Source of the DNA: an uncultured bacterium
GTDB lineage: Bacteria > Bacteroidota > Bacteroidia > CAILMK01
DNA length: 18,650 nt
NCBI GenBank assembly: GCA_903835275.1
Contig: CAILMK010000259.1
Coordinates: 1-18,650, forward strand
Reading direction: 5' to 3'
Program-made: the position numbers and the translations under genes
The notes under the pieces: model-generated
Told to the model about the DNA's origin: nothing
The model's database searches: none
The model's input: only the letters and a program-made list of their open reading frames with translations
Shown here: positions 1 through 15,645 of the stretch, piece by piece
How positions within the stretch are numbered: the first letter of the stretch is position 1
How the letters are laid out: each line of letters begins with the position of its first letter

Positions 1-30
1 GGCATGGAAATCCGAAAAGAGAGTAAATGA
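1..30 (+). CDS. C-terminal tail of an upstream gene (partial)
   Basis: The first reading frame is open from the window edge and ends at a TGA at 28-30, giving a tail that reads GMEIRKESK. The stop overlaps the ATG of the response-regulator gene in an ATGA arrangement (4-bp overlap), a common sign of translational coupling inside an operon. Only nine residues are visible, so the product cannot be identified. A sensor kinase or another signalling protein would fit beside a receiver, but that is a guess. The frame could also be open by chance over so short a stretch. Confidence 0.4.
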   Translation, partial: GMEIRKESK

Positions 31-407
31 AAATACTTATAGCTGAAGATGACAGTATGATCATGAAACTGATCCGTACCCGCCTCGAAAAGGATGGCTA
101 CGAAGTTATAACAGCTAATAATGGTGATTTGGCGCTGGATAAGATCAAGGAAGAATATTTTGATCTCATTATTACAGATATAATGATGCCATTCATCAGC
201 GGATTGGAGTTAGTAAGTACTGTTAAAAATACACTGAAGAAGAAGACTCCTATTATTGTGCTCTCCAATATGCATCTGGAAGCAACAATTCTGGAGGCAT
301 TCAGGTTAGGGGCAGATGATTTTATAACTAAACCCTTCAGCCCTAATGAGCTGAGTGTACGAGTGGCAAAAATTTTAAATAGAATTGAGTTAGACCCGCA
401 TGGTTGA
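27..407 (+). CDS. Stand-alone response regulator receiver (CheY-like, no output domain)
   Basis: This 126-residue protein is a single receiver domain that accepts a phosphoryl group from a histidine kinase. The hallmark residues are present: the acidic pocket E7/D8/D9, the phospho-acceptor D51 in the TDIMMP motif, the switch Ser80 and the invariant Lys102 in the TKPF motif. It ends about 20 residues after that lysine, so there is no DNA-binding or enzymatic output domain, and signalling probably works by protein-protein contact. The gene overlaps the end of an upstream frame by 4 bp and the next gene by 8 bp, so it is probably translated as part of the downstream exopolysaccharide-like operon and may control that machine post-translationally. 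The receiver call is secure; the partner is inferred. Confidence 0.93.
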   Translation: MKILIAEDDSMIMKLIRTRLEKDGYEVITANNGDLALDKIKEEYFDLIITDIMMPFISGLELVSTVKNTLKKKTPIIVLSNMHLEATILEAFRLGADDFITKPFSPNELSVRVAKILNRIELDPHG

Positions 408-2604
408 AAACAATACAAATTCCCTAGGGAAAAAACACAGGAAACCATATAACCTCGGCTACAGGCTGAAGGAGTGGTTTTTATTGTCCATCCTGAAGAT
501 AAGGTATATTTATCTTTTCAAATACTGGAGTTTCAGGCAGAAGTCTGTGGCTTTTCTTGCGTTGGTTATTATTGTATCTGTTGCAAGGTTCTCTCAAAAT
601 GAATTACAGGCGGATAAGCCGAAATTTTATATTGTTAAGGATGGTAGTTCCCTTTATAGGGTATCAAAGGATTATAAGGTAAATACCAACGATCTTATCA
701 TCTGGAATAATATCAGTAATGAATTTACCATTCACCCAAGCCAGAAACTTGCTTTAAATGATGATCCTGACAGTACAGTAAAAAAAGATTCAGTTACAAT
801 TGAGCATCAGTATGCAAGTCAGGATGTCTATCATTCCCTGCAAAAAGGAGAGAATCTGTACAGGTTATCATTAAGGTATAATGTTTCAGTAGATAGTATC
901 ATTCTATGGAATAATATCAAGGATGTCTCAAACCTGGATACAGGAATGAAACTGATTGTTGGCCGTTCAGGAAATAGCAGCAAGGATTCAAATATTGTAG
1001 CTGTTTTAAAACACGAAATCGCTCCGGTAAATCAATCAAATGCCATATATTATACGGTTAAGCCCAAGGATAATATCCTGCGTATTGCACTTGCCCATAA
1101 TGCTTATATAGCGGATATAGTTTCATGGAATAATATTAAGGATATAAACAGCATTGATACAGGCACCCTTCTTATAGTTGGTTACATCCAACCCGCCACC
1201 ACATGGTCACAGGTTGTTGTTCAAACCCCTGTGCCTGCACCTGAAGTTAAGGAGCAACCTGCTCACATTGCTAAAACTGAACCTGCCCCTGTGCAGGAAC
1301 AACAGAAAGCAACTGCTTCAATTGATACTGGTACAAAGTCACACGATACTTCAAAAGTGGTTGTCGTGGATGCTGCAACCAAGGCTAAAAATGATTCAGC
1401 TAAAGCTGCTTTCAGGAAGGATTCTGTTTTAAAGGAACAGGCAATAGCACGGGCACTTTCAAATAAGAAAAGCAAATGGCTGCAACCTAAATTTTACATT
1501 AACCGTTTAAGGCACCAGCCATGGTTAATTGCAGCACTAATTATCTGTACTACCCTGTTTATGTTCGGTGTGATCACACTTATTACCATGGTGGTAATTT
1601 TAAGGATCAGGAGTACAGTAAATGAAGCTATAAGTGCTAATTTCAGTAATGCCTTTGAAGACCTTATTACAGGTGTAATTTACGCTGACCATGACAGTGC
1701 TTCAAAATTGAGTGATGATGAATTTGATGATGCCCAGCTTGGAATTATAAATGGATTCGAGAAGAAATATCTTTCAAATCCTTTTCACAGGCAGTTGTGT
1801 ATTGACCACCTCTTAAATCTTTACAGAAACCTTACCGGAATCAGCGCAATGCGCGTGGTAAACCTGTATCATGAATTCAAACTTAATAACGATTCACTGG
1901 GCAAGGTAAAGAACAGGCAGTGGCATATAAAAGCAAAGGGAATACAGGAAGTGGAGCAAATGCATGTGCAGGATGCTTACAAACTTGTCTATAAATTCAT
2001 AGATAATCCGATAGATACTTTAAGGTATGAATCGCAAATTGCAGTGATGAGCCTTAAAGATGAAAAGAATCTTGCTTTCCTTGAAGAATTAAAATTACCA
2101 CTTACGGAGTGGCAGCAAATGATGCTCGCAAATAAATTGCATATTATCCGAAACAGGGATTTTAGCAATATGGAGGCATTGTTGAGTTGCAGTAATTTAA
2201 CCGTTGTTTGTCTTGCAATAAAAATTGTTCAGGATTTTAACATGCTTGCGTATGTACCGAGACTGACTGATTTGTTAAAGCATGATTCTCCGGATGTGAA
2301 AATGGCAGCGGCAAACGCTTTGGGTGGCTTGATAGCAAAGGATGCAATACCTGCATTGTTTTTGGAATTGAGGACGGCTCCAAGTCTTTTAAAAGAACGA
2401 ATATTGTCGGCTGCAGCTGTTATTGGAATAGATGACCATCTGGATGAGGTTGCAAAATATGTATTCCATGATAATTTCGAGGTAGCTCATGCCGCTGCAA
2501 ATGCACTCGTGAGTGCCGGAGAGAAGGGAATTAATGCACTAAGGGAAATTGTCAGCAACAATGAAGAAAATATAGGTATTCAGGTATTCAACAGTTTTAA
2601 CTAA
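400..2604 (+). CDS. Two-TM protein: three periplasmic LysM modules plus cytoplasmic HEAT-like repeats
   Basis: This 734-residue protein has a basic N-terminus and a hydrophobic segment at about residues 48-64. Three LysM-like modules follow at about 75-119, 142-187 and 216-261, each with the pattern of a YxV-type start, a central WNNI and a terminal LxVG or LAL. A Pro/Ala/Lys/Thr-rich linker spans about 270-360, a second strong TM segment about 374-402, and then a helical C-terminal region runs to the end. Its last part (about 545-720) looks like HEAT repeats, with regular Ala-rich helix pairs. Basic flanks predict that the LysM modules lie in the periplasm and the HEAT region in the cytoplasm. 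LysM modules bind GlcNAc-containing glycans such as peptidoglycan or chitin-like polymers, and HEAT repeats are protein scaffolds. It may therefore link the upstream receiver to the envelope or to the downstream synthase. I know of no characterised protein with this architecture. The start overlaps the receiver gene by 8 bp. Confidence 0.85.
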   Translation: MVENNTNSLGKKHRKPYNLGYRLKEWFLLSILKIRYIYLFKYWSFRQKSVAFLALVIIVSVARFSQNELQADKPKFYIVKDGSSLYRVSKDYKVNTNDLIIWNNISNEFTIHPSQKLALNDDPDSTVKKDSVTIEHQYASQDVYHSLQKGENLYRLSLRYNVSVDSIILWNNIKDVSNLDTGMKLIVGRSGNSSKDSNIVAVLKHEIAPVNQSNAIYYTVKPKDNILRIALAHNAYIADIVSWNNIKDINSIDTGTLLIVGYIQPATTWSQVVVQTPVPAPEVKEQPAHIAKTEPAPVQEQQKATASIDTGTKSHDTSKVVVVDAATKAKNDSAKAAFRKDSVLKEQAIARALSNKKSKWLQPKFYINRLRHQPWLIAALIICTTLFMFGVITLITMVVILRIRSTVNEAISANFSNAFEDLITGVIYADHDSASKLSDDEFDDAQLGIINGFEKKYLSNPFHRQLCIDHLLNLYRNLTGISAMRVVNLYHEFKLNNDSLGKVKNRQWHIKAKGIQEVEQMHVQDAYKLVYKFIDNPIDTLRYESQIAVMSLKDEKNLAFLEELKLPLTEWQQMMLANKLHIIRNRDFSNMEALLSCSNLTVVCLAIKIVQDFNMLAYVPRLTDLLKHDSPDVKMAAANALGGLIAKDAIPALFLELRTAPSLLKERILSAAAVIGIDDHLDEVAKYVFHDNFEVAHAAANALVSAGEKGINALREIVSNNEENIGIQVFNSFN

Positions 2605-2629
2605 TTGATGAATTATAAATAGATAAACT

Positions 2630-4108
2630 ATGTACGGTTTTTACGATTTTTTCAACCAGCTTATTGTAAAAGGCATATTTATATATGCGGTCGTGATATG
2701 CGGCTCGTATGCACTACTTGCCTTTATTTCCTCGCGGGCTATTAGCGGGTATTTGAAAAGAAACAGCTACATAGATTATAGTTCCATTCTGCGTTCTACA
2801 TTTGCTCCTTCAGTATCGGTAATTGCACCGGCATACAATGAGGCATTAACGGTTGTCCAGAATGTCCGTTCATTACTATCACTTCAGTACAGCAATTTTG
2901 AGGTGATCATCGTCAACGATGGAAGCAAGGATGATTCCATGCAAAAACTCATAGATTCCTACGAGCTGGAAGCCGTGAAATATGTTTTCCATGAGTATCT
3001 TGTAACAAAACCAATCAGAAATATTTACAAGTCTAAAAATCCTGCCTATCACCGCCTTCTGGTAGTTGATAAGGAAAACGGAGGAAAGGCTGATGCGCTT
3101 AATGTTGGTATGAATATATCTTCCTGTAAGATCATATCCTGCATAGATGTGGATTGCATCATGGAAGAAACAGCGCTTTTAAAGATCGTAAAACCATTCA
3201 TGGAAGATACCAAGCGTGTAATTGCAGTGGGAGGTGTAATATCTATTGCCAATTCCTGCGAGATTGAAAAAGGACGCCTGATAAAAATTAATCTTCCGAA
3301 GAAATTTCTTCCGAGGGTGCAGGTACTTGAGTATTTCCGCGCTTTTCTTATGGGACGCATGGCATGGAGTAAACTGGATGGCTTGCTATTGGTATCGGGA
3401 GCGTTTGGATTGTTTGACAAGGAAATTGCATTGAAAGCCGGCGGATATAATACTAAGACCGTGGGTGAAGATATGGAACTTGTAGTACGCATGAGAAGGT
3501 ATATGATCGAGAACGATATGCCTTACACTGTTATGTATGTACCGGATCCATTATGCTGGACAGAGGCACCGGATACCCTTAAAGTATTGGGGCGTCAGCG
3601 CAGCAGGTGGTCAAGGGGGACTATAGAAACATTATACTTGCACAGGGGGCTGTTTTTTAATCCGAGCTACGGATTTCTTGGAATGGTCAGCTATCCGTAC
3701 TGGTTCTTCTTTGAGTTCCTTGCCTCCTGGGTGGAAAGTGCGGGTCTTCTGTATTTTATTATCCTGATCGCATCAGGCCAGGCATACTGGACGTTCTTTC
3801 TAACTTTGTCTTCGCTGGTATTCACATTCTCAATGCTTATTTCGGTGTCGGCTCTTCTTTTTGAAGAAAGATCTTTTCACCAGTATAAAAAGAAATCTGA
3901 TCTTTTTAAATTGATTCTGACTGCTTTCATGGAGCCGATTTTTTATCATCCCCTGAATGTTTATTGGTCCATTCGTGGAAACTATGAGTTATTAATGGGC
4001 GTGAAAAAATGGGGAGAAATGACGCGGGTCGGTTTTGGGAATTTAAAAAAGAAAAAAGTAACAGGCAAAAAACAGAAGGCAAGTACCAAGCCGGGCCTTT
4101 CCGTTTAA
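2630..4108 (+). CDS. Membrane-bound family 2 glycosyltransferase (processive, PgaC/IcaA or hyaluronan-synthase type)
   Basis: This 492-residue integral inner-membrane enzyme probably polymerises a beta-linked polysaccharide from a nucleotide sugar on the cytoplasmic face. One TM segment lies at about 15-38. The GT-A domain follows with every expected motif: D97 in VNDGS, the D173-x-D175 metal site, the catalytic-base motif G279-E280-D281 and the Q323-R-S-R-W327 motif that marks processive GT2 synthases. Further hydrophobic segments at about 348-410 and 425-450 would form the translocation pore. The tail is Lys-rich and there is no PilZ domain, so direct c-di-GMP control as in BcsA is not indicated. 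The gene starts 25 bp after the LysM/HEAT gene and ends 14 bp before the YaiO-like gene. The sugar cannot be read from the sequence; GlcNAc is favoured by the LysM neighbour but unproven. Confidence 0.88.
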   Translation: MYGFYDFFNQLIVKGIFIYAVVICGSYALLAFISSRAISGYLKRNSYIDYSSILRSTFAPSVSVIAPAYNEALTVVQNVRSLLSLQYSNFEVIIVNDGSKDDSMQKLIDSYELEAVKYVFHEYLVTKPIRNIYKSKNPAYHRLLVVDKENGGKADALNVGMNISSCKIISCIDVDCIMEETALLKIVKPFMEDTKRVIAVGGVISIANSCEIEKGRLIKINLPKKFLPRVQVLEYFRAFLMGRMAWSKLDGLLLVSGAFGLFDKEIALKAGGYNTKTVGEDMELVVRMRRYMIENDMPYTVMYVPDPLCWTEAPDTLKVLGRQRSRWSRGTIETLYLHRGLFFNPSYGFLGMVSYPYWFFFEFLASWVESAGLLYFIILIASGQAYWTFFLTLSSLVFTFSMLISVSALLFEERSFHQYKKKSDLFKLILTAFMEPIFYHPLNVYWSIRGNYELLMGVKKWGEMTRVGFGNLKKKKVTGKKQKASTKPGLSV

Positions 4109-4122
4109 CTCTTTAGAAATAC

Positions 4123-5958
4123 ATGGGTAAATATTTACGATATTTTTACATTCATCTGATCATCATTCTTTCCGTTTTCGCGGCAGGGTCTTCCCTGTAT
4201 GCGCAACAGGATAGCAATGCTGTGAAAAACGTCAGGCCTGTGGATACCATGTTCAAGGAAGCACGTCTAAAGGCATTTGCCGGCCATAAGGATACTGCAA
4301 AGCTTATCATTGATTCCATTCTGAAAAGAACTCCTGATTATAATGATGTAAAAGTGTTTTTGGCCCGGATAAATACCTGGCAGCAAAAATATGATACAGC
4401 CAGTATTATACTCAATGAGGTCCTTGCTTCCGATCCTAAAAACCAGGAGGCAATTGATGCGTTTATTGATTTGAACTATTGGACGGATCACCAGGATATT
4501 GCAATGGCTTATGCAGACAAGGGTCTTGCCGTAAATGATAAATCAGACAGGTTCCATTATAAAAAAGCAAAGATATTTGTATACCAGAAGAAACCCGATG
4601 ATGCATTGTGGTTGCTGGATACGTTTATAAAATATACCCCTGATACTGCTGCAAATCACCAGAGCAGGTTTTACCGGGATAGCGTACTGAATGCAACATA
4701 TAAGCGCAGTGTTGATGAAATGTTCCTTGATGCGCGTAACAAGGCATTTACCGGACACAGGGATACTGCAAGGCTTATCATAGATTCCATCTATAAAAGG
4801 TCCCCGAATTATCTTGATGTAAGGGTATTTGAGGCAAGACTGAATACATGGGATCATAAATACGATACAGCAGAAAGGACATTGCGCTGGGTGCTTTCAA
4901 AAGATTCCAACAATACAGAAGCCATGAGTGCTCTGTTTGATTTAAAATACTGGGGAGATCATCCACGCGAAGCAGAATCATTCGCTGATATGTATATCAG
5001 GGTTGAACCCAAGTCAGATGAATTTCATGTAAAAAAAGCAAAGGCTCAGGTTGACCAGAAAAACTATAAAGGTGCTGCTGATATGCTGGATGCCTTTATT
5101 GCGACCCACAAGGATAGCAGTGAACTATCAAAAGCATACAGGCGCAAATTGCGTGAGGAAATGGTGCATAACAGTCTTACACTTTCATACGATATAGACG
5201 TATTTAATGACCATGAGGACATGACCCTGAACAAGGCGTTTACTAAAAATAATAACTTCAGTGAACCATGGCATCTCGTATCCATTTATTATGATCGTCA
5301 GACTAAATTCGGGTCTGTAATCGCAAGGATAAACTATGGCAACCGATTTAACAGTTACAATGGTGTTCAATACGAAATGGATGCTTATCCTACCATTGCA
5401 AAAAGTACTTATATGTACCTGAATGCAGGTTATTCAGATGCCCTCGTTGTTTTCCCTAAATACAGATGGGGTGCTTCAATATATCGTAATTTACCATGGG
5501 CATTTGAGGCTGAACTTGGCATTCGTGTTTTGTATTTTGCTCCTAACCTGGGCCCTGTTCGCATCTTCACAGGATCCATAGGCAAATACTACGGCAATTT
5601 CTGGTTTTCAGTTCGTCCGTACATTATCCCGAGTGATTATATTAGTTATGGCTATGTGAGCAAGTCCTTCCAGTTCATTGCTCGATACTATTTAAGCGGA
5701 GATCCGGATCATTATTTATCAGCCTCTTATAGCAGGGGTTTTTCCCTGGATGACCATAGCAAGGATTTTGTCCTTATTCAGCAAGATTATACAAAGAACG
5801 GTACGCTGCCAAGCTATAAGATACGCATGGCATACCAATGCAAGATAGCAAGCAGGACTTTCCTGAATGTAAGGGCATCTTACGAAGAAGATAAACTTTT
5901 TTACGGAAAATTCAGGAATGACTGGAGTGCCGGTTTTAGTATAGAAAGAAGATTTTAA
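4123..5958 (+). CDS. YaiO-like outer-membrane protein: TPR-type repeats plus C-terminal beta-barrel
   Basis: This 611-residue protein begins with a signal peptide ending near AQQ at residues 27-29. Residues 40-169 and 197-326 are two 130-residue units that align without gaps at roughly half identity and look like TPR-type helical arrays. Residues from about 350 to the end alternate polar and aromatic positions as in beta strands and finish in RRF, the aromatic C-terminus typical of barrel proteins recognised by BamA. This matches the YaiO-family outer-membrane barrel. In E. coli K-12, yaiO lies near yaiP (a GT2) and yaiS (a deacetylase-like gene). TPR plus barrel is also the layout of PgaA, the poly-GlcNAc exporter, although this barrel (about 260 residues) is smaller than that of PgaA. 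Position between the synthase and an extracytoplasmic protein suggests a role in exporting or anchoring the polymer. Confidence 0.82.
   Translation: MGKYLRYFYIHLIIILSVFAAGSSLYAQQDSNAVKNVRPVDTMFKEARLKAFAGHKDTAKLIIDSILKRTPDYNDVKVFLARINTWQQKYDTASIILNEVLASDPKNQEAIDAFIDLNYWTDHQDIAMAYADKGLAVNDKSDRFHYKKAKIFVYQKKPDDALWLLDTFIKYTPDTAANHQSRFYRDSVLNATYKRSVDEMFLDARNKAFTGHRDTARLIIDSIYKRSPNYLDVRVFEARLNTWDHKYDTAERTLRWVLSKDSNNTEAMSALFDLKYWGDHPREAESFADMYIRVEPKSDEFHVKKAKAQVDQKNYKGAADMLDAFIATHKDSSELSKAYRRKLREEMVHNSLTLSYDIDVFNDHEDMTLNKAFTKNNNFSEPWHLVSIYYDRQTKFGSVIARINYGNRFNSYNGVQYEMDAYPTIAKSTYMYLNAGYSDALVVFPKYRWGASIYRNLPWAFEAELGIRVLYFAPNLGPVRIFTGSIGKYYGNFWFSVRPYIIPSDYISYGYVSKSFQFIARYYLSGDPDHYLSASYSRGFSLDDHSKDFVLIQQDYTKNGTLPSYKIRMAYQCKIASRTFLNVRASYEEDKLFYGKFRNDWSAGFSIERRF
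4240..5100 (+). repeat. Internal tandem duplication inside the YaiO-like gene
   Basis: The segments 4240-4629 and 4711-5100 encode two 130-residue units that align colinearly with no gap. Shared landmarks include GH(K/R)DTA, LIIDSI, NTW, KYDTA, the YW-DH element and KKAK. The units are separated by a 27-residue spacer. The similarity is clear in protein but diverged in DNA, so this is an old duplication of a TPR-like array rather than a recent slippage event. Confidence 0.85.
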
Positions 5959-5959
5959 A

Positions 5960-7159
5960 ATGCAAAAGAGAAGATATATAATCCTTGTATTCTATTTCAT
6001 ACTCCTGACACCGCTCTGGATGTATTTGCTGTGGCATTTGAATCCTCCGAGGGAAATGAAAATTGCCATTATTGATAAAACCGTCCTTACAAATAAAGGG
6101 CAGGAGCACCGTTCATTGAACTGGGTCCTCAATTACAAAAAGTATGTTCGTCCTGATGGAAAATTATATTCCATTCCGGATGACTATTATGGATTTTTTC
6201 CTTTGGATAAGGAAAAATATAAAAAGCAGGGATTTGAAAATATGACCAAGTCCCAGCTTGATAAAATCCCGGATAAGTATGACATGGCATATTTTACAGA
6301 TACCTACGGGATGTATTATAACGAGTGGTTCAAGATTGGAAGGGCTACTGAACGATCCCCCCATATTTTCGGTGGTATGCAGCCTGAAGATATCCAGGTC
6401 ATCAGGGAGATGAAGAAGAAAAAGAAGCTTGTCATTTGTGAATTCAATACAATATGCTCGCCTACAAGTTATGGTGTACGTTCCCAATTTGAGAATATGT
6501 ACGGCATGAAATGGTCCGGCTGGATGGGCCGTTATTTCGAGTGCCTGGATACAACCATCAACAAGGAATTACCACTTTGGGTGGTTCGTAATTATAAAAG
6601 ACAACATGGCAATAAATGGCCTTTCAAAAAAGCAGGAATGGTATTTGACCGTGAAGATGATCACGTTGAAGTATTGGAAATAAATACCCACCTGGAAAAG
6701 GAATCTCCTTGTATCATTACCAACAAAGCTGACCAGGCAAGATATAATGTCCCGGAAAAAGTTGGGTATCCTTACTGGTTCGATATTATGTTGACCACAC
6801 ATCGTAATCACGTAGTATCAGTATTTGAAATTTACCCTAACAAACACGGCGATTCAATATTGCAGGCATATCATATTCCTACTCACTTTCCTGCAATGAT
6901 GGAACACTATGATTCAGCATATAAATTCTTTTATTTTTCCGGGGATTTTGCTGATAACCCTATCAAGGATTATCTCGCTCAAATGAAAGGTATCTGGTAC
7001 CTCAGTCCTTTATTTTACACCCGTGATGACCTTACCAGCAGGACAGGCTTTTTCTGGGAGTATTATGCACCGGTAATGAGTACCATCCTGAACAGGTATT
7101 ATCATGATATGAATACTGAAGGCCCTCTGGGAATCATCAGGAAGGCGACAGCAAAATAG
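5960..7159 (+). CDS. Membrane-anchored extracytoplasmic protein of unknown function, last gene of the exopolysaccharide-like operon
   Basis: This 399-residue protein has one N-terminal signal-anchor segment (about residues 6-26) after a short basic start, and the remainder is predicted to be extracytoplasmic. I do not recognise a named domain. Visible blocks that look like a conserved fold are IDKTV (38-42), the TDTYG element (113-117), EFNT followed by SPT (161-169), GWMGRYFE (187-194), SGDFADNPI (327-335) and FFWEYY (364-369). Alternating hydrophobic strand and acidic-turn patterns suggest an alpha/beta fold, possibly amidotransferase-like or a glycan-acting enzyme, but this is weak inference. 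The ATG follows the YaiO-like stop after one base, indicating tight co-expression, and the gene ends just before the operon terminator. In Pga-type systems the comparable slot is filled by a polymer-modifying protein, which is the role I would test. Confidence 0.7.
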   Translation: MQKRRYIILVFYFILLTPLWMYLLWHLNPPREMKIAIIDKTVLTNKGQEHRSLNWVLNYKKYVRPDGKLYSIPDDYYGFFPLDKEKYKKQGFENMTKSQLDKIPDKYDMAYFTDTYGMYYNEWFKIGRATERSPHIFGGMQPEDIQVIREMKKKKKLVICEFNTICSPTSYGVRSQFENMYGMKWSGWMGRYFECLDTTINKELPLWVVRNYKRQHGNKWPFKKAGMVFDREDDHVEVLEINTHLEKESPCIITNKADQARYNVPEKVGYPYWFDIMLTTHRNHVVSVFEIYPNKHGDSILQAYHIPTHFPAMMEHYDSAYKFFYFSGDFADNPIKDYLAQMKGIWYLSPLFYTRDDLTSRTGFFWEYYAPVMSTILNRYYHDMNTEGPLGIIRKATAK

Positions 7160-7191: not shown

Positions 7192-7225
7192 AAAAGCGTC
7201 CCGTACATTGTACAGGACGCTTTTT
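7192..7225. terminator. Rho-independent terminator after the five-gene operon
   Basis: The arms AAAAGCGTCC (7192-7201) and GGACGCTTTT (7215-7224) are perfectly complementary. An inner GTAC/GTAC pairing surrounds an ATT loop, with one C/A mismatch, and a T run reaches 7225. It lies 32 bp after the last operon stop. The A run on the opposite side lets it serve the convergent small gene as well. Confidence 0.85.
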
Positions 7226-7246: not shown

Positions 7247-7552
7247 CTACATCGTTTTCGCATCCTTGTTACACATTTTGCATGGAGTCTTGCCTGCTTT
7301 TTCAGCTTCGGCCTTTGTCATTTCCTTTACAGTACCACTGCATTTTGCGAGGCCTGTGCAAGTTTTACTGGTATGATATGCTTTCGCGGTTTTTGTATCG
7401 CATACATATACAGTCGCTTTTGCATCTTTCGGTTTTTCCATCTTTGTTTCTGCCTGGGCACCCTTGCTGTCTGTTTTTGCAGCTGTTTTATTTTGCGCAA
7501 AAGCGGTTGTCAGGCTGAAAGTCAGTGCTAATAATAATGTTATCTTTTTCAT
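7247..7552 (-). CDS. Small secreted Cys/His protein with an Ada/ComEA-nuclease-like zinc-site pattern
   Basis: Starting at the ATG at 7552, this encodes 101 residues with a clean signal peptide (MKKI, then a Leu-rich core and AFAQ at residues 17-20). The frame extends further upstream, but that would bury the signal peptide and run into the divergent gene, so 7552 is preferred. After a Lys/Ala/Thr-rich linker (21-46), the globular part carries H60, C65, C71 and a terminal C91-x-x-C94. This H-x4-C ... C-x2-C arrangement, with a preceding YH and a following PCK(M/R)C, recalls the small zinc-binding module found at the ends of some secreted nucleases and in Ada N-terminal domains. It is likely to bind metal in the periplasm or outside the cell. 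The partner and role are unknown. It converges on the terminator at 7192-7225 and diverges from the prolyl oligopeptidase gene. Confidence 0.75.
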   Translation of the reverse strand: MKKITLLLALTFSLTTAFAQNKTAAKTDSKGAQAETKMEKPKDAKATVYVCDTKTAKAYHTSKTCTGLAKCSGTVKEMTKAEAEKAGKTPCKMCNKDAKTM

Positions 7553-7648
7553 GTCTTTAGAATTTGACTTCAATATTATAAAAAATAATTGAAATACGGA
7601 CCAACTTACTACATGAACTTCAGCGGATACCCGCTTCGCTCTTTTACG

Positions 7649-7656
7649 TATATTTG
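7649..7656 (+). promoter_or_regulatory. Bacteroidota -7 element for the prolyl oligopeptidase gene
   Basis: TATATTTG matches the TAnnTTTG consensus exactly and ends 17 bases before the ATG at 7674, which would give a leader of about 10 bases. I see no good TTG -33 element at the usual 19-21 base spacing, so only the -7 half is supported. Confidence 0.5.
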
Positions 7657-7673
7657 CCTTCAAAATTAAGAGG

Positions 7674-9806
7674 ATGAATCGATTTAGAATATTGTTTATT
7701 ATCTCTGTAATAGCCTCTTTGGCTTTTATTGACGGGCCGCAAAAAGCAGTTGGACCCAAGTATACTTATCCGGATACCAGGAAAGATGCCGTTTCCGATA
7801 ACTATTTCGGTACCAAAGTGGATGATCCGTATCGCTGGCTGGAGGCGGATACGGCGCCGGAAGTTAAGCAATGGGTCATTGCACAAAATACAGTGACTAA
7901 AAATTATCTTTCACAGATCCCATACAGGGCCAAAATTCATAAGCGGTTGGAGGAGATATGGAACTACCCTAAATATACTGCTCCTTTCAAAAAGGGCGGC
8001 AATTATTTCTGGTACAAAAACAACGGCCTTCAAAACCAGAGCGTTTTATATATGACCAGTGATCTTAATAAAACCCCGCAGGTTTTATTGGATCCAAATA
8101 AGCTTTCTACAGACGGTACGGTTTCCCTTGGGGGAACTTTCTTTTCCAGAAATGGAAGATATATGGGATATACCATCAGTCGCTCAGGTTCGGACTGGCA
8201 GGAAATTTATGTTGTGGATGTCCGCACAAAAATGCGCACCAGGGATTCCTTGCGCTGGGTGAAATTTTCTGATATTGCCTGGCAGGGCGATGGCTTTTAT
8301 TACAGCCGTTTTGATGCTCCAAAGGGTGGTAGCGGGCTAAGTGCGGAAAATGAATTTCAAAAAGTATATTTTCATAATCTGGGCGATCCACAAACTAAGG
8401 ATAAGCTTGTTTTTATGGATAAGGATCATCCATTGCGGAATTTTGGCGCTTCAACCACCGAGGATGAACGTTACCTGATCATCTATGGTACTGATGGTGC
8501 TTCCACTGGGGATGAGGTTTACATCAAGGATCTTGTTAAACCCAAAAGCGAAATAAAGAAACTTTGGGAAGGCTTTGAATTTAATTACAGTATTGTAGAT
8601 AATATCAGCCATACACTTTTGGTATTGACCAATAAAAATGCACCCAAATACAAACTCATTTTAGTGGATATGGAGCATCCTGATGAAAAGGATTGGAAAA
8701 CAATTATTCCTGAAAGCAATGATGTATTACAGGAAGCAAAAACAGCAGGAGGAAAGATATTCGCGATCTATATGCAGGATGCTGCAAAACACGCTTACCA
8801 GTATGATATGGATGGAAAACGTGAACGTGAAATCGGGCTTCCTGCTCTTGGTTCCGTCAGCGGATTTGACGGTGGCAAACAGGACAAGGAATTGTTTTTT
8901 GCATTTACATCGTTTACATATCCATCTGCAGTGTTCCGTTATAAAATTGAGGACGGAAGTACTACTGTTTTCCAGAAGCCGGAAGTAAAATTCAATCCGG
9001 ATGATTATGTGACCAAACAGATCTTTTATAAAAGCAAGGACGGTACAAAAATCCCAATGTTTATCATTCATAAAAAAGGTTTGGATATGAATGGTGATAA
9101 TCCAACTTACCTCTACGGGTATGGCGGATTTAATATATCCATGAATCCGGTTTTTTCCGTGGGAAGATTAATTATTCTGGAAAATGGAGGCGTACTTGCC
9201 ATAGCAAATCTACGTGGTGGTGGCGAATACGGTGAGGACTGGCATAAAGCAGGCATGCTTGATAAAAAGCAAAATGTATTTGATGACTTTATTGCTGCGG
9301 CAGAATACCTGATTGAAAATAAATATACCTCCTCCCAAAAACTAGCTATAGCAGGTGGCTCAAACGGAGGCTTGCTCATTGGCGCATGTATGACTCAACG
9401 CCCTGAATTGTATAAAGTGGCTTTGCCCGCAGTAGGTGTTATGGATATGCTGCGTTTTCATAAGTTTACCATTGGTCATGCATGGACTCCTGAATACGGA
9501 AGCAGCGAAAACAAAGCGCAATTCGAGGTATTGTATAAGTATTCGCCGATCAATAATTTAAAACCGGCGGCATATCCTGCCACACTGGTTACTACAGCGG
9601 ATCATGATGACAGGGTGGTGCCCGCGCACTCATTCAAGTTTATATCTACCTTGCAGGATGCACAACTGGCGGATAATCCCGTAATGATACGCATTGACAG
9701 CAAAGCCGGCCACGGTGCGGGAAAACCTACAGGAAAACAGATTGATGAATGGACGGATATATGGAGTTTTGTATTTTACAATATGGGAATTACACCCAAA
9801 TACTGA
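7674..9806 (+). CDS. Secreted prolyl oligopeptidase (serine peptidase family S9A)
   Basis: This 710-residue enzyme cleaves short peptides after proline. A hydrophobic N-terminal segment (residues 5-18) suggests export to the periplasm, as is common for Bacteroidota members of the family. Residues about 30-80 match the N-terminal lead-in, including DDPYRWLE. Residues about 100-440 form the beta-propeller region and about 445-710 the alpha/beta-hydrolase domain. The catalytic triad is visible: Ser563 in GGSNGG, Asp645 in the DHDDRV motif with Arg647 as the probable substrate-binding arginine, and His680 in KAGHGAGK. The length equals the usual S9A length, so the gene is intact. It reads divergently from the small Cys/His protein. 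The next gene begins 42 bp later and may be cotranscribed. Confidence 0.96.
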   Translation: MNRFRILFIISVIASLAFIDGPQKAVGPKYTYPDTRKDAVSDNYFGTKVDDPYRWLEADTAPEVKQWVIAQNTVTKNYLSQIPYRAKIHKRLEEIWNYPKYTAPFKKGGNYFWYKNNGLQNQSVLYMTSDLNKTPQVLLDPNKLSTDGTVSLGGTFFSRNGRYMGYTISRSGSDWQEIYVVDVRTKMRTRDSLRWVKFSDIAWQGDGFYYSRFDAPKGGSGLSAENEFQKVYFHNLGDPQTKDKLVFMDKDHPLRNFGASTTEDERYLIIYGTDGASTGDEVYIKDLVKPKSEIKKLWEGFEFNYSIVDNISHTLLVLTNKNAPKYKLILVDMEHPDEKDWKTIIPESNDVLQEAKTAGGKIFAIYMQDAAKHAYQYDMDGKREREIGLPALGSVSGFDGGKQDKELFFAFTSFTYPSAVFRYKIEDGSTTVFQKPEVKFNPDDYVTKQIFYKSKDGTKIPMFIIHKKGLDMNGDNPTYLYGYGGFNISMNPVFSVGRLIILENGGVLAIANLRGGGEYGEDWHKAGMLDKKQNVFDDFIAAAEYLIENKYTSSQKLAIAGGSNGGLLIGACMTQRPELYKVALPAVGVMDMLRFHKFTIGHAWTPEYGSSENKAQFEVLYKYSPINNLKPAAYPATLVTTADHDDRVVPAHSFKFISTLQDAQLADNPVMIRIDSKAGHGAGKPTGKQIDEWTDIWSFVFYNMGITPKY

Positions 9807-9848
9807 TCATTTTTGTACCATTTTTGCAGTTTATACGTTACTAACAAG

Positions 9849-10763
9849 ATGAAGCAGGGAATTATAATCATTTTACTTTTATCCATTCTGGGTGGTAGTC
9901 ACCTGCATGCCCAGGTTGGGCATGCATATAGTGCTGCCGGGTATGATAGCCTGCTAACGTATGAAATGCAGCTGTGGAGGCTTTCGGACTCTATCCTGGA
10001 CGGTAGCGGACCAATGGTGCGAGCAAGTGCCCACAGGAAGTTTATACCGCTTTTGAAGAAGGCGCTTAAAGTTAAGGGCTCTTTTGACTATCCGTTCGAT
10101 TCGCTGGTATTTATGAAAAAGTTGGTTCCCGAGGATAAATCATTCCGAATATTCAACTGGATGCTGAAATTTGAAGATGGTACGTTCCACTACGTCGCGG
10201 CTATACAAATGAATACAAAGGATTCCCTGAAACTCATTCCCCTGTATGATAAATCCGAAAAGCTGGATGACAGCGAGCAGACAGTAAAAGTGTATGATTC
10301 TTATAACTGGTTTGGGGCATTGTACACTGCAATTATTGATTGTAAGATAAAAGGTAAAAAATATTATGTGCTTTTAGGATGGAACGGGTATAATGTTTTC
10401 AGCGATGAAAAAGTAATTGATGTCCTGTCCTTTGATAAGGAAGGAAAGGTGCAACTGGGAGCACCTATTTTTGATTTGAAGGGGAAAATTCAGACTCGTG
10501 TAGTGTTCCAGTACAACGGGGAGGCTAATTTCTTGTTGAACTATGTCCCGGAACATAAAATTATTTCTTTTGATCATCTGGTTCCTCCTAATCCAAAAAT
10601 GGCAAATAAGCCTTATATGTTTGTACCGGATGGTTCCTACGATTACTTTATTTTCAAAAAGAAAAAATGGGTACTTATGGATGATCTTTTCGGGAATGTC
10701 AAGGATATAAAAGCAGCAGGAGAGGGTACCGGTACCTTCAAAAAAGAAGGCGGGGAAAAATAA
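9849..10763 (+). CDS. Secreted protein of unknown function
   Basis: I chose the ATG at 9849 because it begins a textbook signal peptide (MKQG, then an Ile/Leu core, cleavage after HAQ near residue 22). A TTG 36 bases upstream in frame would place twelve extra residues before it and is less likely. The product is 304 residues. The mature part is rich in Asp, Lys and aromatics, has no further TM segment and has a Lys/Gly-rich tail. A central block, YYVLLGWNGYNVFSDEKV (about residues 176-193), looks like a conserved beta-rich core. I recognise the general type of Bacteroidota periplasmic hypothetical but no named family. It sits between the prolyl oligopeptidase and the VanZ-like gene (6 bp to the latter), suggesting cotranscription. 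Confidence 0.8.
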   Translation: MKQGIIIILLLSILGGSHLHAQVGHAYSAAGYDSLLTYEMQLWRLSDSILDGSGPMVRASAHRKFIPLLKKALKVKGSFDYPFDSLVFMKKLVPEDKSFRIFNWMLKFEDGTFHYVAAIQMNTKDSLKLIPLYDKSEKLDDSEQTVKVYDSYNWFGALYTAIIDCKIKGKKYYVLLGWNGYNVFSDEKVIDVLSFDKEGKVQLGAPIFDLKGKIQTRVVFQYNGEANFLLNYVPEHKIISFDHLVPPNPKMANKPYMFVPDGSYDYFIFKKKKWVLMDDLFGNVKDIKAAGEGTGTFKKEGGEK

Positions 10764-10769
10764 TAAACC

Positions 10770-11309
10770 ATGCCGTACTTTTATTACCGCTTTGTCCTGA
10801 TAATATTACTTATAATATCCATATTTTTCATTGCGCATTTCGTGTGGCCCTACATCGCAGGGTGGTTGGTAATACTCGAATTCCTGAACCGAAGGAAAGA
10901 ATATACAAGCCAGAAAAACTTCAGAACATACAACCTGATTTTTACAGCTTATGTCGTTTTTATTTTCAACCGCTTTGTATTTAAAGCGGTTCCTGTCGCT
11001 GTAAGGGAAGGAATCAACCGTTTGGAGCATGTATTGTTCGCCTTCGTTTTATGCCTGATGATATTACAGTTTTTGCAGTTTCCATTTGCACGGAAGTATG
11101 GTTTCTATATTAAACTATTATTAGCAAGTCTGATTTTTCAGATGATAGGGATCGTGAACGAATTATACCAGTTCGCATTCGCAAGTGGGCATTCTATTTT
11201 ATTATCTCCGGATACCATTCATGATCTGATCTCAAATGCTTTCGGAAATATTTTATTTGTATTCCTGATTATCTGGCTGCAAAAGCGCAGGAATATACAA
11301 GTGGCATAA
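10770..11309 (+). CDS. VanZ-like integral membrane protein
   Basis: This 179-residue hydrophobic protein has about five membrane segments (roughly residues 8-30, 53-72, 85-105, 112-131 and 153-171). The spacing of polar residues follows the VanZ family: an RLEH element with His87, a NELYQ element with Glu131 and Gln134, then HDLISNAFG with Asp152, Asn156 and Gly159. VanZ proteins are small membrane proteins, one of which gives low-level teicoplanin resistance in enterococci; most members have no known role and may act on lipid-linked glycans. The gene follows the secreted unknown by 6 bp and ends before a terminator that mainly serves the convergent receptor gene. The family call is moderately sure; no function should be inferred. 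Confidence 0.6.
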   Translation: MPYFYYRFVLIILLIISIFFIAHFVWPYIAGWLVILEFLNRRKEYTSQKNFRTYNLIFTAYVVFIFNRFVFKAVPVAVREGINRLEHVLFAFVLCLMILQFLQFPFARKYGFYIKLLLASLIFQMIGIVNELYQFAFASGHSILLSPDTIHDLISNAFGNILFVFLIIWLQKRRNIQVA

Positions 11310-11376: not shown

Positions 11377-13881
11377 TTATTTGGAGAAATCCAAAGGGAT
11401 AAATATCTTGAAACTTATATTTCTACCCATGTTATACACTCCTACGCGATAACTTCCGTTGGAATAATTTACCGGGTAATATTTAAAGCGACTCATATAA
11501 TCCATATAGCCGACATCCATGAGGTTGTCACCTGAAATATAAATGGTAAATAGCTTGCGTCCGTTCTTTACTATGTCGCTTCCTATACCTGCATTTATCA
11601 GTGTATACGATTCTGTGGGAGCCTTACTTGCGGCGTATTCAAACGGTGTGGAGGCAGTACTTAATGCAGTATACGTTGCGCTTTGCAAATAAATATCCTT
11701 CTGCGCAAATACATGAGTGACGCCGAAACGGATATAAGTATTTGCGAAATTTTTGCCCAACTTTTTTGCAGTAAAAGTAATAGCTGATTGCAACCTTGCC
11801 GGCGGAATAAACGGAGGATATTTAATGGAGTCCGGAACATTTTTTAATTGAGCATTTACAATGCTATAAGCAGCATATAGATCAAGCCAGGGCAATACGG
11901 AAGGATGAATATCCAGCATGGCTTCTCCTCCTGTCAGCATCGCGTCGTTTTGCGTATACTTATATACCGGAGCCGGGCCAAAGCCTACGGTGCTGCTATC
12001 AAGCAATACCTTGCCTTTGGAATCAAGTACAACTTTCGGAAAAATATAATTATTAATGCTGTTTGAGAATACATCCACTTCAAAAGTAATATCCTTTGTT
12101 TTTATGCCGGGTGCAATATCAAATTCCATGCTTTGTTCCGGTTTTAAGAGAGGATTACCGATTTCATAAACCACTGTTCCGTCATGGATGCCGTTGGATC
12201 CTGATTCTGCTACATTCGGCGCACGGAAACCACTCGCTGCATTTGCCTTGATATAGAACTTATCATTGAACTGATACGTAAGACCCGCGCTGCCCGTGGC
12301 ACCCCTAAAATTGGAGGTGTATCCTACAAACCTGTGCAATGCGCCCGGGGTATTTGCGGAAACAGGAGTTTCGTTAGAGTCTATATAGGAATCATGTCCT
12401 TTGAATTGTCGAGTATCATAGCGTACGCCTTCGCTTATGGTAAGCTTGCCGAATTTTTCATTCCCAATGGCAAATCCACCCAGAGAGAGTGAATTATATT
12501 CCGGTATTAATAGGAGGGTTCCTTTATTGGTAGAATTCTGGTACATGCTACTTGTGCCTACTGAGAAATTAAAATATTTATATTCCGGTGATACGTAACG
12601 GATATCACCATTCATGGTATTCAGGAAGTACCAGATATTGGAAACATCAGGCATAGTGGGATCATTGTTTTCCTGGCGGCTGTTTTGTTGCCATGCAAAA
12701 GTACCTGTAATGCGTCCTTCTCCAAGCGCAACACTATTATCCCACACAAGTTTGGAATGCTTTACATTTTGATTGATAAGAAATGGAGTGTAGGATTTTT
12801 GTTCCTGCAGAGTCGGGTTTACGTAGGTAGGATTTCCATTAACGGCAATTTGTTTTTGCAATATTCCCGTTGCGGAATCCCGCGTACCATCTACAATTCC
12901 AGTTTGCAAATTGAAAAAGCTGAAGTGCAGTTGTGAAAATCCCCAACTGCGGTGAATGCCAACAGTCGCTTCATAATTAAAATTACTGAATTGCGAATTG
13001 GTTACATATCCATCGTATTTATTCTGATACGCGTGCGCTTCTATGCTGGTAATACGTCCGCTCCAGGATATGCCATTGTTTGTTCCTGCCACGTGACCGC
13101 TGGTACTCGTCAGGCCATTATTTGTTTGGTAATTGTAGGCTATATCGGATTTTATTTGTCCTTCAGGTAATGGTTTTTCAGCAAGGAAATTTATTACTCC
13201 GGAAATGGCATCGGAACCGTACACAAGGGATGCCGGGCCTTTCAAAATCTGTACGCGGTCCACTGAATTTGGATCTATTTCAATACCGAATTCATCACCC
13301 CATTGTTGTCCTTCCTGCAATACTCCGTCATTGACGGTTACCAGACGGTTGTACCCAAGTCCACGGATAACAGGTTTGGATATACTTTGTCCGTCTGTAA
13401 TAGCAGATACACCCGGTATTTTTGCAATGGCATCAACCACATTAGTGGAAGCATTTTGTTGCAAATAACTGTTTGGTACTTCTGTGATCGGTTGGGCAGT
13501 GGATTGAAGGTTATTACCGACTGCATTTCCCGTTACCACTATTTCCTGGCATTGAATTGCAGAGGATTTAAGAACAAAATCTTGTGTGGCATTATCAGAA
13601 ATTGTAACGGAAATTTCGGATACCGTATATCCGATCAGGCGTGCCTCGACTATATACGTTCCCTTCGGAATATTGTTTAAATTGTATGTTCCATCTGCGC
13701 CACTGATGGCACCAATTTTAAGGTCGGGTATAAATATGCTTACTCCTTCAAGAGGAGTATTATCTCCCGCATCAATTACTTTTCCTGAAAGTGTATTCTG
13801 TGAAACAGTATTGACTTGTGAAAAAGCAGTAATGCACGAAAATGTAAAAAGTATAAAGAGTATTAAATATTTTGTCTTCAT
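11377..13881 (-). CDS. TonB-dependent outer-membrane receptor, metal-receptor-like
   Basis: With the ATG at 13881 the product is 834 residues and starts with a signal peptide (MKTK, hydrophobic core, AFSQ near residue 22). The frame reaches back to 13941, but that start would precede the signal peptide. The mature protein opens with a carboxypeptidase-regulatory-like domain (about 30-107), then a TonB-box-like QEIVVTG (112-118), a plug domain (about 125-235 with IRGLGYNRL and VQILKGPASLVYGSDAISG) and a long barrel to the end. It should import a scarce ligand across the outer membrane with TonB-ExbBD energy. The plug's EGQQWGDE segment resembles that of ZnuD-type zinc receptors, so a metal or metal chelate is a reasonable but unproven substrate. 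A small anchored protein lies immediately upstream and is probably cotranscribed. Confidence 0.95.
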   Translation of the reverse strand: MKTKYLILFILFTFSCITAFSQVNTVSQNTLSGKVIDAGDNTPLEGVSIFIPDLKIGAISGADGTYNLNNIPKGTYIVEARLIGYTVSEISVTISDNATQDFVLKSSAIQCQEIVVTGNAVGNNLQSTAQPITEVPNSYLQQNASTNVVDAIAKIPGVSAITDGQSISKPVIRGLGYNRLVTVNDGVLQEGQQWGDEFGIEIDPNSVDRVQILKGPASLVYGSDAISGVINFLAEKPLPEGQIKSDIAYNYQTNNGLTSTSGHVAGTNNGISWSGRITSIEAHAYQNKYDGYVTNSQFSNFNYEATVGIHRSWGFSQLHFSFFNLQTGIVDGTRDSATGILQKQIAVNGNPTYVNPTLQEQKSYTPFLINQNVKHSKLVWDNSVALGEGRITGTFAWQQNSRQENNDPTMPDVSNIWYFLNTMNGDIRYVSPEYKYFNFSVGTSSMYQNSTNKGTLLLIPEYNSLSLGGFAIGNEKFGKLTISEGVRYDTRQFKGHDSYIDSNETPVSANTPGALHRFVGYTSNFRGATGSAGLTYQFNDKFYIKANAASGFRAPNVAESGSNGIHDGTVVYEIGNPLLKPEQSMEFDIAPGIKTKDITFEVDVFSNSINNYIFPKVVLDSKGKVLLDSSTVGFGPAPVYKYTQNDAMLTGGEAMLDIHPSVLPWLDLYAAYSIVNAQLKNVPDSIKYPPFIPPARLQSAITFTAKKLGKNFANTYIRFGVTHVFAQKDIYLQSATYTALSTASTPFEYAASKAPTESYTLINAGIGSDIVKNGRKLFTIYISGDNLMDVGYMDYMSRFKYYPVNYSNGSYRVGVYNMGRNISFKIFIPLDFSK

Positions 13882-13984
13882 CGCAAATAAATTAATAATG
13901 TATAAAATGCAAACATCACGTAATTCAAAACCAGTAATCAAATACTGTTGAATTATGCCTGTGTCCGTGGAAAAAACCTTTATT

Positions 13985-14524
13985 TCAGGAATATTTCGGC
14001 GGGGGCGATGAGATAAAAAGAGAGATAGATTTGTACGATGAAAATACTGATGAATGACCGTAAATAATATTCGGTATATTATGTTGAACAGTATGTTTTT
14101 GAGGCAGGATAATATCCTGTAAGGAAATCTTTAATGTTGTTTTTGAAGTGCCTTTAGGGGGAGTGGATTTTAGATCACTATTATCTGCCACTTGCTGACC
14201 AAAACTAATACGTAGTTCCTGTTCCCTGTTATCCTGTTTGCAATGAAATAATGTGTATCCGTTTTTATTAGTGCTTGAAGAATAATCATACAGGTTACCG
14301 TCAAAAATAAATTCTGAGGAGCTTAGTTTGATAAAACGTTTTGCATCCTGAACGCTGTTGTTATCGATCTTTAATATAAGCAGGGATTTTTCGTTTTTGG
14401 AGATTTCCTGAAACTCTTCGTTCAGTTCATGTATTCCCAAAGTAAGGTAAAGAGGGCATCCCAGGTATTGATAGAGAAAAATACCCAGAAGTGCAAAGCT
14501 TAAAAGTCGCGAAGCCTTCTTCAT
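13985..14524 (-). CDS. Small signal-anchored protein upstream of the TonB receptor
   Basis: This 179-residue protein has an N-terminal hydrophobic segment (about residues 7-23) ending in YLGCP, so it is exported and may be membrane-tethered. The rest is polar, with an antiparallel-beta-like stretch (45-110) and a C-terminal part containing four histidines (about 143-160) before a Ser/Pro-rich end. I recognise no named domain. A gap of about 100 bp to the receptor start with no terminator suggests one transcript, as often seen for small accessory genes paired with metal receptors. A role in substrate handling is inference only. A -7 box almost abuts its ATG (see the separate entry). Confidence 0.75.
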   Translation of the reverse strand: MKKASRLLSFALLGIFLYQYLGCPLYLTLGIHELNEEFQEISKNEKSLLILKIDNNSVQDAKRFIKLSSSEFIFDGNLYDYSSSTNKNGYTLFHCKQDNREQELRISFGQQVADNSDLKSTPPKGTSKTTLKISLQDIILPQKHTVQHNIPNIIYGHSSVFSSYKSISLFISSPPPKYS

Positions 14525-14529
14525 GCGGA

Positions 14530-14537
14530 CAAAGATA
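14530..14537 (-). promoter_or_regulatory. -7 element abutting the start of the small anchored protein gene
   Basis: On the minus strand this reads TATCTTTG, an exact TAnnTTTG match, only five bases before the ATG at 14524. Transcription would start at or within a few bases of the start codon, implying a leaderless or nearly leaderless message. No TTG -33 partner is visible at the usual spacing. Confidence 0.4.
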
Positions 14538-14557
14538 GTCAGGATTTATGATTTGGT

Positions 14558-14571
14558 TCCGCCGCGGCGGA
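14558..14571. repeat. GC-rich 14-bp perfect palindrome
   Basis: TCCGCCGCGGCGGA is its own reverse complement and stands out in an AT-rich intergenic stretch. It lies about 34 bp upstream of the minus-strand ATG. It may be a protein-binding site or a copy of a dispersed short palindromic repeat; one copy in the window cannot decide. Confidence 0.55.
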
Positions 14572-14649
14572 TATGATTTACGATTATAAAGTCAATAATT
14601 TTCCGCCTAATACGATCAAATTTGGCCTTTCGGATATCTTATTTGAAAT

Positions 14650-14681
14650 TTTATTATCTTGATATTCAATAAGATAATAAA
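14650..14681. repeat. 11-bp inverted repeat with a 10-bp spacer
   Basis: TTTATTATCTT (14650-14660) is perfectly complementary to AAGATAATAAA (14671-14681). The spacer region contains a smaller nested palindrome, TTGA-TAT-TCAA (14659-14669). It sits mid-way between the divergent anchored-protein and YceI genes. It could be an operator or an AT hairpin; the arms are AT-only apart from one C/G pair, so chance is a real alternative. Confidence 0.5.
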
Positions 14682-14703
14682 TAACTTAAAAATAAATGTG
14701 TAT

Positions 14704-14729
14704 ACAATATATGTAGGTACATATATTGT
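14704..14729. promoter_or_regulatory. Probable operator: perfect 12-2-12 palindrome upstream of the YceI-family gene
   Basis: ACAATATATGTA (14704-14715) and TACATATATTGT (14718-14729) are perfect reverse complements around a GG spacer. The palindrome ends two bases before the -7 element at 14732-14739 and so covers the -33 region and the spacer, where a bound dimer would block RNA polymerase. The size fits a dimeric winged-helix regulator of MarR or HxlR type, the kind often associated with yceI genes, but no regulator gene is adjacent. Confidence 0.7.
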
Positions 14730-14731
14730 TG

Positions 14732-14739
14732 TAGATTTG
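14732..14739 (+). promoter_or_regulatory. -7 element of the YceI-family gene
   Basis: TAGATTTG matches TAnnTTTG exactly. Transcription should begin near 14744-14747, which lies after the in-frame ATG at 14742. This argues that the true start codon is the next ATG, at 14763. Confidence 0.6.
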
Positions 14740-14762
14740 TAATGAATTTTAAATATTATACC

Positions 14763-15350: not shown

Positions 15351-15381
15351 TTTCATTTTGTCATACATTCTTTTCTATTCG

Positions 15382-15408
15382 AAAGCCGTCTTACAAGACG
15401 GCTTTTTT
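15382..15408 (+). terminator. Rho-independent terminator of the YceI-family gene
   Basis: AAAGCCGTCT pairs with AGACGGCTTT around a TACA loop, followed by a T run through 15408. It lies about 30 bp after the stop codon. Confidence 0.88.
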
Positions 15409-15443
15409 ATTTCTATGTAATCGTATTTGACAAATTTCAAAAG

Positions 15444-15475
15444 TTGGCAAATCTCTTGGTGAATCAGTAACTTTG
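15444..15475 (+). promoter_or_regulatory. Promoter of the aldehyde dehydrogenase gene
   Basis: A TTG at 15444-15446 and an exact TAnnTTTG box (TAACTTTG, 15468-15475) are separated by 21 bases, within the 19-21 base spacing typical of Bacteroidota sigma-70-type promoters. The expected transcript start near 15480 is about a dozen bases before the ATG at 15493, supporting 15493 as the original start codon. Confidence 0.65.
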
Positions 15476-15492
15476 TAATTATATTTTATTCT

Positions 15493-15645
15493 ATGAAGAA
15501 GATTCAAAACTAGATAAATGGCCGTTTACAGGATGCACTTTCAGGCAAATGGCTGGATAATTACAATCCTGCTACGGGAGATATTTATTCCTTTATTCCT
15601 GATTCGGATAAGGAAGATATTGAGCTCGCAGTAGAGGCGGCAAGC
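15493..15645 (+). other. Original 5' end of the aldehyde dehydrogenase gene, broken by an amber codon
   Basis: The ATG at 15493 is in frame with the downstream dehydrogenase. It reads MKKIQN, then TAG at 15511-15513, then INGRLQDALSGKWLDNYNPA and on into the long open frame. The translated sequence after the stop is typical of the aldehyde dehydrogenase N-terminus (an N-x-[YF]-I-x-G-[KR] start and a NPATG element), so the stop replaces what was probably a tyrosine codon. Between the TAG and the ATG at 15646 there is no ATG, GTG or TTG in frame. The break may be a real nonsense mutation, a sequencing error or a read-through site. Confidence 0.85.

Follow-up and report, generated by a model that had tools for sequence, protein, structure and literature searches.

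The window analysed here is the 18,650-bp contig CAILMK010000259.1, which is an entire contig of the draft genome GCA_903835275.1 of an uncultured Bacteroidota bacterium (3.25 Mb, 764 contigs, 78% complete). Five plus-strand genes at its beginning likely encode a synthase-dependent exopolysaccharide secretion system. They occupy the positions 27-407, 400-2604, 2630-4108, 4123-5958 and 5960-7159 (stop codons counted), the first two overlap by 8 bp and the following gaps measure 25, 14 and 1 bp, as expected from the tight packing described in a first-pass annotation of this DNA. Scans against Pfam and NCBIfam identified, in gene order, a receiver, a protein with LysM and HEAT domains, a family 2 glycosyltransferase (GT2) and a protein with tetratricopeptide repeats (TPRs) and a YaiO domain, while the fifth open reading frame (ORF), here called ORF5, belongs to no family. 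Two of the features that mark the synthase-dependent class are a membrane GT2 carrying the D, DxD, ED and QxxRW motifs and a TPR scaffold with an outer-membrane barrel that is genetically linked to the synthase, and the set contains both.

Conservation of the gene set in Bacteroidota

The same five genes are present in identical order in a second genome of the same genus (G001, stretches L010 and L090; L010 is record CAIKRV010000011), and therefore the arrangement is no assembly artefact. A profile scan of the GTDB species genomes yielded 283 stretches encoding ORF5, and the following locus counts refer to the best 80 of them, picked by likeness to ORF5. A neighbour was counted if its start lay at most 9.5 kb from ORF5, and many of the contigs are short. 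Near ORF5 we found YaiO at 74, an LtaS-like protein at 64, the receiver at 60, HEAT at 58 and GT2 at 57 loci. The TPR-plus-barrel gene precedes ORF5 at 72 of the 80 loci, and GT2 and ORF5 share a strand, with GT2 upstream, in the window and at 8 of the 80. The first-pass annotation had made its idea of a single system depend on the five families not being rarely found together in related genomes; receiver, HEAT, GT2 and YaiO all stand beside ORF5 at 41 of the 52 loci that are flanked by 7 kb or more in either direction, at 36 of these together with the LtaS-like protein. The remaining 11 well-flanked loci comprise one without receiver, two without YaiO and eight without receiver, HEAT and GT2.

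At 23 of the 80 loci no GT2 was seen nearby. We searched the genomes of eight of these, together with three genomes of the G series that have a GT2-less ORF5 stretch, and all 11 possess an orthologous GT2 elsewhere (400-806 bits, lowest identity 38%). Around this distant GT2, inspected in eight of the 11 genomes, HEAT adjoins in every case and the receiver is present in six, the other two regions being cut by contig ends.

A phylum survey, in which the identical 247 genomes were searched with the ORF5 and the GT2 profiles and scoring was limited to the first few candidates of each genome, points in the same direction. ORF5 matches occurred in 12 genomes, from which the fragment in G223 was dropped (E 3e-4, interrupted by stops; best GT2 match 158 bits). 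The other 11, the own genome counted, all have a GT2 match of at least 624 bits. The GT2 scores fall into two groups, with at least 376 bits in 65 genomes (the orthologue group) and at most 176 bits for the next best proteins. The co-occurrence of ORF5 and GT2 has a P-value of 2e-7, or 8e-7 when the own genome is left out, both uncorrected for kinship. ORF5 is present in 11 and absent from 54 of the 65 GT2 genomes; within this sample, ORF5 implies GT2, but not vice versa.

We also inspected 20 GT2 regions, 16 from ORF5-less genomes and four from genomes with ORF5. HEAT adjoins GT2 in all 20, the receiver is present in 17, YaiO in 15 and an LtaS-like protein in seven (three of them fused to GT2); only weak matches underlie five of the HEAT assignments (26-48 bits) and one of those of YaiO (30 bits). 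In the ORF5-less genomes, a TPR-plus-barrel protein was found in 14 of the 16 regions. The core of the system is therefore receiver, HEAT and GT2, usually accompanied by YaiO, and the LtaS-like protein and ORF5 are add-ons to it. A lone chance neighbourhood was rejected on the basis of the 80-locus, the 11-of-11 and the 247-genome counts, which include no random-neighbourhood control. The proposal that the genes form a distinct composite polysaccharide machine is thereby supported and extended. According to the record titles, the form with ORF5 also occurs in the cultured genera Pedobacter, Spirosoma, Chitinophaga, Gillisia and Sediminibacterium; L031 belongs to Pedobacter glucosidilyticus and L041 to Spirosoma luteum.

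Proteins of the set and a frequent sixth component

The GT2 (2630-4108, 492 aa) belongs to Glycos_transf_2 in Pfam, and its best NCBIfam family is PgaC_IcaA, at 132 bits where the cut-off is 422. The residues D97, D173/D175, G279-E280-D281 and Q323/R324/R326/W327, which make up the motifs known as D, DxD, ED and QxxRW, are invariant in 19 aligned sequences including that of the window, and the full set of processive-synthase motifs noticed at first reading is thus conserved. The protein is 27% identical to PgaC over 274 aa (E 7e-27) and 26% identical to YaiP (E 3e-13). A closest relationship to a non-processive enzyme, named at the outset as an argument against the whole idea, was not observed, since PgaC scores better than YaiP and QxxRW is kept.

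The gene following GT2 (4123-5958) had been described as encoding a TPR-plus-barrel protein, and this description holds. The protein matches PF19413 (3e-50, 171 bits against a cut-off of 23.9) and TIGR04390 (133 bits against a cut-off of 32) and contains TPRs in addition. A signal-like N-terminus comes first, then two arrays of TPR helices (40-192 and 197-346) and finally a barrel (350-611). In the structure model (predicted local distance difference test score 87.4, predicted template modelling score 0.58) the barrel has 14 strands, counted manually; the barrels of PgaA and BcsC have 16. Foldseek matched the model to BcsC and VIA-align to the CymA, OmpG and FadL barrels; chains of PgaA and BcsC were not among the 50 VIA-align matches listed. 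The model thus suggests a predicted outer-membrane export porin. At another locus, which represents another variant, a DUF4838 protein (L161:12875-15079), possibly a polymer-acting enzyme, directly follows a YaiO protein whose TPR arm is long, beside HEAT-GT2.

ORF5 (5960-7159, 399 aa) has one N-terminal transmembrane (TM) segment (5-27), followed by a presumably periplasmic domain in which numerous aromatic and acidic residues are invariant. It matched no family in Pfam or NCBIfam and no sequence in the PDB searches; there are 790 homologues at E ≤ 0.001, and none of the 120 listed has a precomputed Pfam domain. The unrecognised anchored protein of the first-pass annotation can therefore be kept as anchored and without family and can be refined by its model, which shows a GATase1-like fold near the CBM87 carbohydrate-binding domain of Agd3 (PMC7229062). 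CBM87 domains combine such an alpha/beta/alpha fold, devoid of the Cys triad, with an aromatic cleft and glycan binding; ORF5 shares the fold, as modelled, and the lack of a conserved cysteine, and may likewise bind glycans. An active class I glutamine amidotransferase was rejected, because the nucleophilic cysteine is not conserved (99 of 207 sequences in the best column); E161 is invariant and, by our reading of the motif order, lies at an elbow-like position. Homology to PgaB was rejected as well, in view of a chance-level alignment (E 0.03) and the missing family and PDB matches. Some loci encode a protein of about 375 aa near ORF5 (L158:6122-7240, 373 aa, no Pfam match; L042:13693-14829, 379 aa).

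The receiver (27-407, 126 aa) matches Response_reg (2.9e-29) and has no output domain in Pfam. It possesses the acidic pocket E7/D8, the phospho-acceptor D51, S80 and K102; D51 is conserved in 19 and K102 in 17 of 19 aligned sequences, the window among them. A kinase-like ORF lies at most two ORFs away on the same strand at 21 of the 60 loci with a short receiver, and 14 of these ORFs have at least 800 aa. The contig of the window begins 26 bp before the receiver gene, and any promoter or kinase located further upstream would therefore be beyond view.

The next gene (400-2604, 734 aa) encodes a membrane protein with three LysM stretches (3e-22) and HEAT_2 (1e-12), and hydropathy indicates an N-terminal hydrophobic stretch (49-67) and a TM region (373-407). 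The LysM stretches would accordingly face the periplasm and the HEAT repeats the cytoplasm. In most relatives only the TM-HEAT half is present, and its gene directly precedes that of GT2, usually overlapping the GT2 start. A Pfam scan of seven HEAT proteins detected LysM in three of them (window, L010 and L011), and 56 of 60 HEAT proteins are too short for it (at most 387 aa). LysM was therefore rejected as a defining part; judged by the sequences, it is a local elaboration, and of the LysM-HEAT protein first described most relatives share the TM-HEAT half. The N-terminus of the HEAT protein at L093:13062-13499 is extended by a part that resembles SPOR on visual inspection; this identity is not claimed, as Pfam returned nothing at E values up to 1. 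As to a c-di-GMP receptor on the synthase, a further mark of the class, PilZ and PgaD gave no match in the five window proteins, and by analogy the HEAT protein is probably a control subunit of the synthase in the position that PgaD or PilZ holds in known systems. Because the switch lysine is absent in two of the 19 aligned receivers and a protein with two receivers and GGDEF replaces the receiver beside HEAT-GT2 at L153:5633-7192, gating of the HEAT protein by the receiver is something we infer. The latter protein is a possible link to cyclic di-GMP (c-di-GMP), which may take part in some lineages.

The LtaS-like protein, here called LtaSX, is a frequent sixth component that was overlooked in the first-pass annotation. 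This membrane protein carries a domain of the Sulfatase family (PF00884, 3.6e-31 at L080). The best NCBIfam matches are phosphoglycerol transferase I followed by membrane-oligosaccharide glycerophosphotransferase at L080 and LtaS at L042, all far under the cut-offs. E286, T326, D518 and H519, which we take to be the metal and nucleophile residues of LtaS, are invariant in 16 of 16 sequences, and at 10 of the 80 loci LtaSX is fused to GT2. The own genome carries two tandem copies of 693 and 465 aa (519 and 406 bits) on contig C69 (L103, minus strand, 3102-5180 and 1692-3086, respectively), as does G001; the 465-aa copy retains the catalytic half and lacks most of the membrane part. LtaSX is not universal: 11 distinct genomes with an LtaSX-less ORF5 stretch gave four strong matches (at least 404 bits) and seven weak ones (at most 85 bits) or none. 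At L031 a GDPD-family gene (PF03009) lies between ORF5 and LtaSX, and glycerol-phosphate is therefore weakly favoured over ethanolamine-phosphate as the group transferred. At the LtaSX position of two loci (L064:11380-12087 and L075:11171-11878, both minus strand) there is a 236-aa membrane protein with weak likeness to the TM half of LtaSX only (E 0.004 and 0.016), which hints at an own role of this TM part. Two LtaSX-like proteins (L146:10029-12455, 809 aa; L148:6222-8600, 793 aa) additionally score 98 and 65 bits with the YaiO/TPR profile and perhaps bear TPRs.

The terminator expected at the end of the set corresponds to a terminator-like hairpin of 15 pairs at 7192-7224, which begins 33 bp past the end of ORF5 and precedes a minus-strand ORF (7247-7759). 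The scan score fell on the minus strand; since the sequence is nearly palindromic, the hairpin is taken as serving both convergent units and would terminate either of them. Further downstream, the plus strand (7674-11309) encodes a prolyl oligopeptidase, a 316-aa protein and a 179-aa membrane protein, the latter two without Pfam family. The prolyl oligopeptidase gene follows the set in both the window and L010, and the 316-aa gene is also retained there. The 179-aa membrane protein was not found in L010, where a 179-aa ORF after the counterpart of the 316-aa gene did not match it. A TonB-dependent receptor, a family-less 179-aa protein, a YceI protein and an aldehyde dehydrogenase (11377-16935) are ordinary neighbours.

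Proposed route of the polymer and alternative explanations

In the secretion system that we propose, GT2 would polymerise a nucleotide-sugar and extrude the chain across the inner membrane. The HEAT protein probably controls GT2 and would be read by the phosphorylated receiver encoded upstream, and its LysM part may tether the complex to the peptidoglycan in this clade. The anchored domain of ORF5 probably binds the emerging chain in the periplasm and hands it over to the YaiO protein, which would receive it with its TPR arm and export it through the outer membrane by its barrel. An LtaS/OpgB-type enzyme, encoded on a different contig in this genome and also present in most relatives, probably decorates the chain with phosphoglycerol or phosphoethanolamine. 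The complete and more specific version, in which the phospho-receiver docks on the HEAT control subunit and replaces c-di-GMP, a synthase-bound LtaS-type enzyme adds lipid-derived phospho-groups and an anchored CBM87-like guide leads to a 14-strand exporter, is put forward tentatively, as a possible but rather doubtful model.

The anchored and probably periplasmic ORF5 would also fit a periplasmic, non-exported glucan with phosphoglycerol groups, similar to that of the Opg system with its synthase OpgH and phosphoglycerol transferase OpgB, and the YaiO protein would then serve another purpose. The NCBIfam matches of LtaSX at L080 and the GDPD-family gene at L031 agree with this, but the TPR-plus-barrel gene precedes ORF5 too regularly (72 of 80 loci, and presence in 14 of 16 ORF5-less GT2 regions) and PgaC_IcaA is the top-scoring family of GT2, which makes such a glucan unlikely. 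It appears similarly improbable that the genes are a divergent pga operon for poly-N-acetylglucosamine in which unrelated proteins take the places of PgaB and PgaD. PgaC_IcaA as best GT2 family and the subsequent TPR-barrel protein would be expected of such an operon, but the scores remain far below the cut-offs for PgaC (132 versus 422 bits) and PgaA (TIGR03939, 45 versus 367 bits), the modelled barrel has 14 instead of the 16 strands of PgaA, the likeness of ORF5 to PgaB is at chance level and the five genes, to which the search for PgaB was confined, include no deacetylase family. A pga-like organisation without detectable pgaB and pgaD has been reported (PMC7112194), in line with this alternative. 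Two independent modules, receiver-HEAT-GT2-LtaSX and YaiO-ORF5, that are neighbours through a shared role in the envelope are very improbable, since in spite of ORF5 and GT2 lying on opposite strands, hence often in separate transcripts, at 49 of 58 loci showing both, and of the 8 of 52 well-flanked loci without a GT2 module, GT2 is present in all searched ORF5 genomes (11 of 11 without a nearby GT2, 11 of 11 strong hits in the survey) and precedes ORF5 on the same strand in the window and at 8 of 80 loci.

Exopolysaccharide secretion by one system consequently remains our preferred reading. To our knowledge, the secretion of matrix polymers is poorly known in Bacteroidota compared to Proteobacteria. 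We found no description of the gene set as a system in the titles and abstract openings of the PubMed Central (PMC) papers searched, a search that does not cover subscription papers and preprints, and 'YaiO family' had no literature matches in PMC. The conserved set, with its core GT2 in 65 of 247 phylum genomes and its ORF5 form in cultured genera, supplies named genes for deletion.

Comparison with known systems

The domain of ORF5 resembles the CBM87 of Agd3 and the N-terminal domain of PelA(DA) from B. cereus. In contrast to these, ORF5 is free-standing and membrane-anchored, without a deacetylase family match in Pfam or NCBIfam and without a sequence match in the PDB searches.

The yaiO-yaiX-yaiP locus of E. 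coli shares a YaiO-family barrel near a GT2. The parallel drawn in the first-pass annotation thus stands in this part, whereas the yaiS gene it included was not within the stretch examined. Despite the common name, BLAST found no real similarity between E. coli YaiO (257 aa) and the window protein, and the window GT2 aligns weaker with YaiP than with PgaC.

PgaABCD of E. coli shares the processive GT2 motifs (27% identity to PgaC), the TPR-plus-barrel exporter and extra membrane or periplasmic partner genes. The window set differs from it by the receiver, the HEAT protein and the 14-strand modelled YaiO barrel, and its relatives by an optional LtaS-like enzyme. PgaB and PgaD were not found among the five genes in Pfam and NCBIfam, as already stated at first reading. 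On sequence grounds, the set is to be placed within synthase-dependent secretion and, by the curated cut-offs, outside Pga. PgaC-PgaD is controlled by c-di-GMP (PMC7112194); the main text of that paper does not mention Bacteroidetes, HEAT or YaiO. If our proposal is correct, control by receiver and HEAT protein would be a way of switching a synthase without c-di-GMP.

The type II cellulose system (Bcs) of E. coli is similar in combining a synthase with a membrane-bound phosphotransferase (BcsG) and in the BcsC-like TPR-barrel exporter. It differs in that the window GT2 is not a CelA (43 versus 699 bits), that BcsB and PilZ have no match in the five genes and that LtaSX resembles phosphoglycerol transferases and LtaS and, in some cases, forms a fusion with the synthase. 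The TM domain of the phosphoethanolamine transferase BcsG packs on the cellulose synthase (PMC11470070), and by analogy LtaSX may be a parallel to BcsG; if so, decoration by LtaSX would provide a further phospho-modified polymer alongside phosphoethanolamine cellulose.

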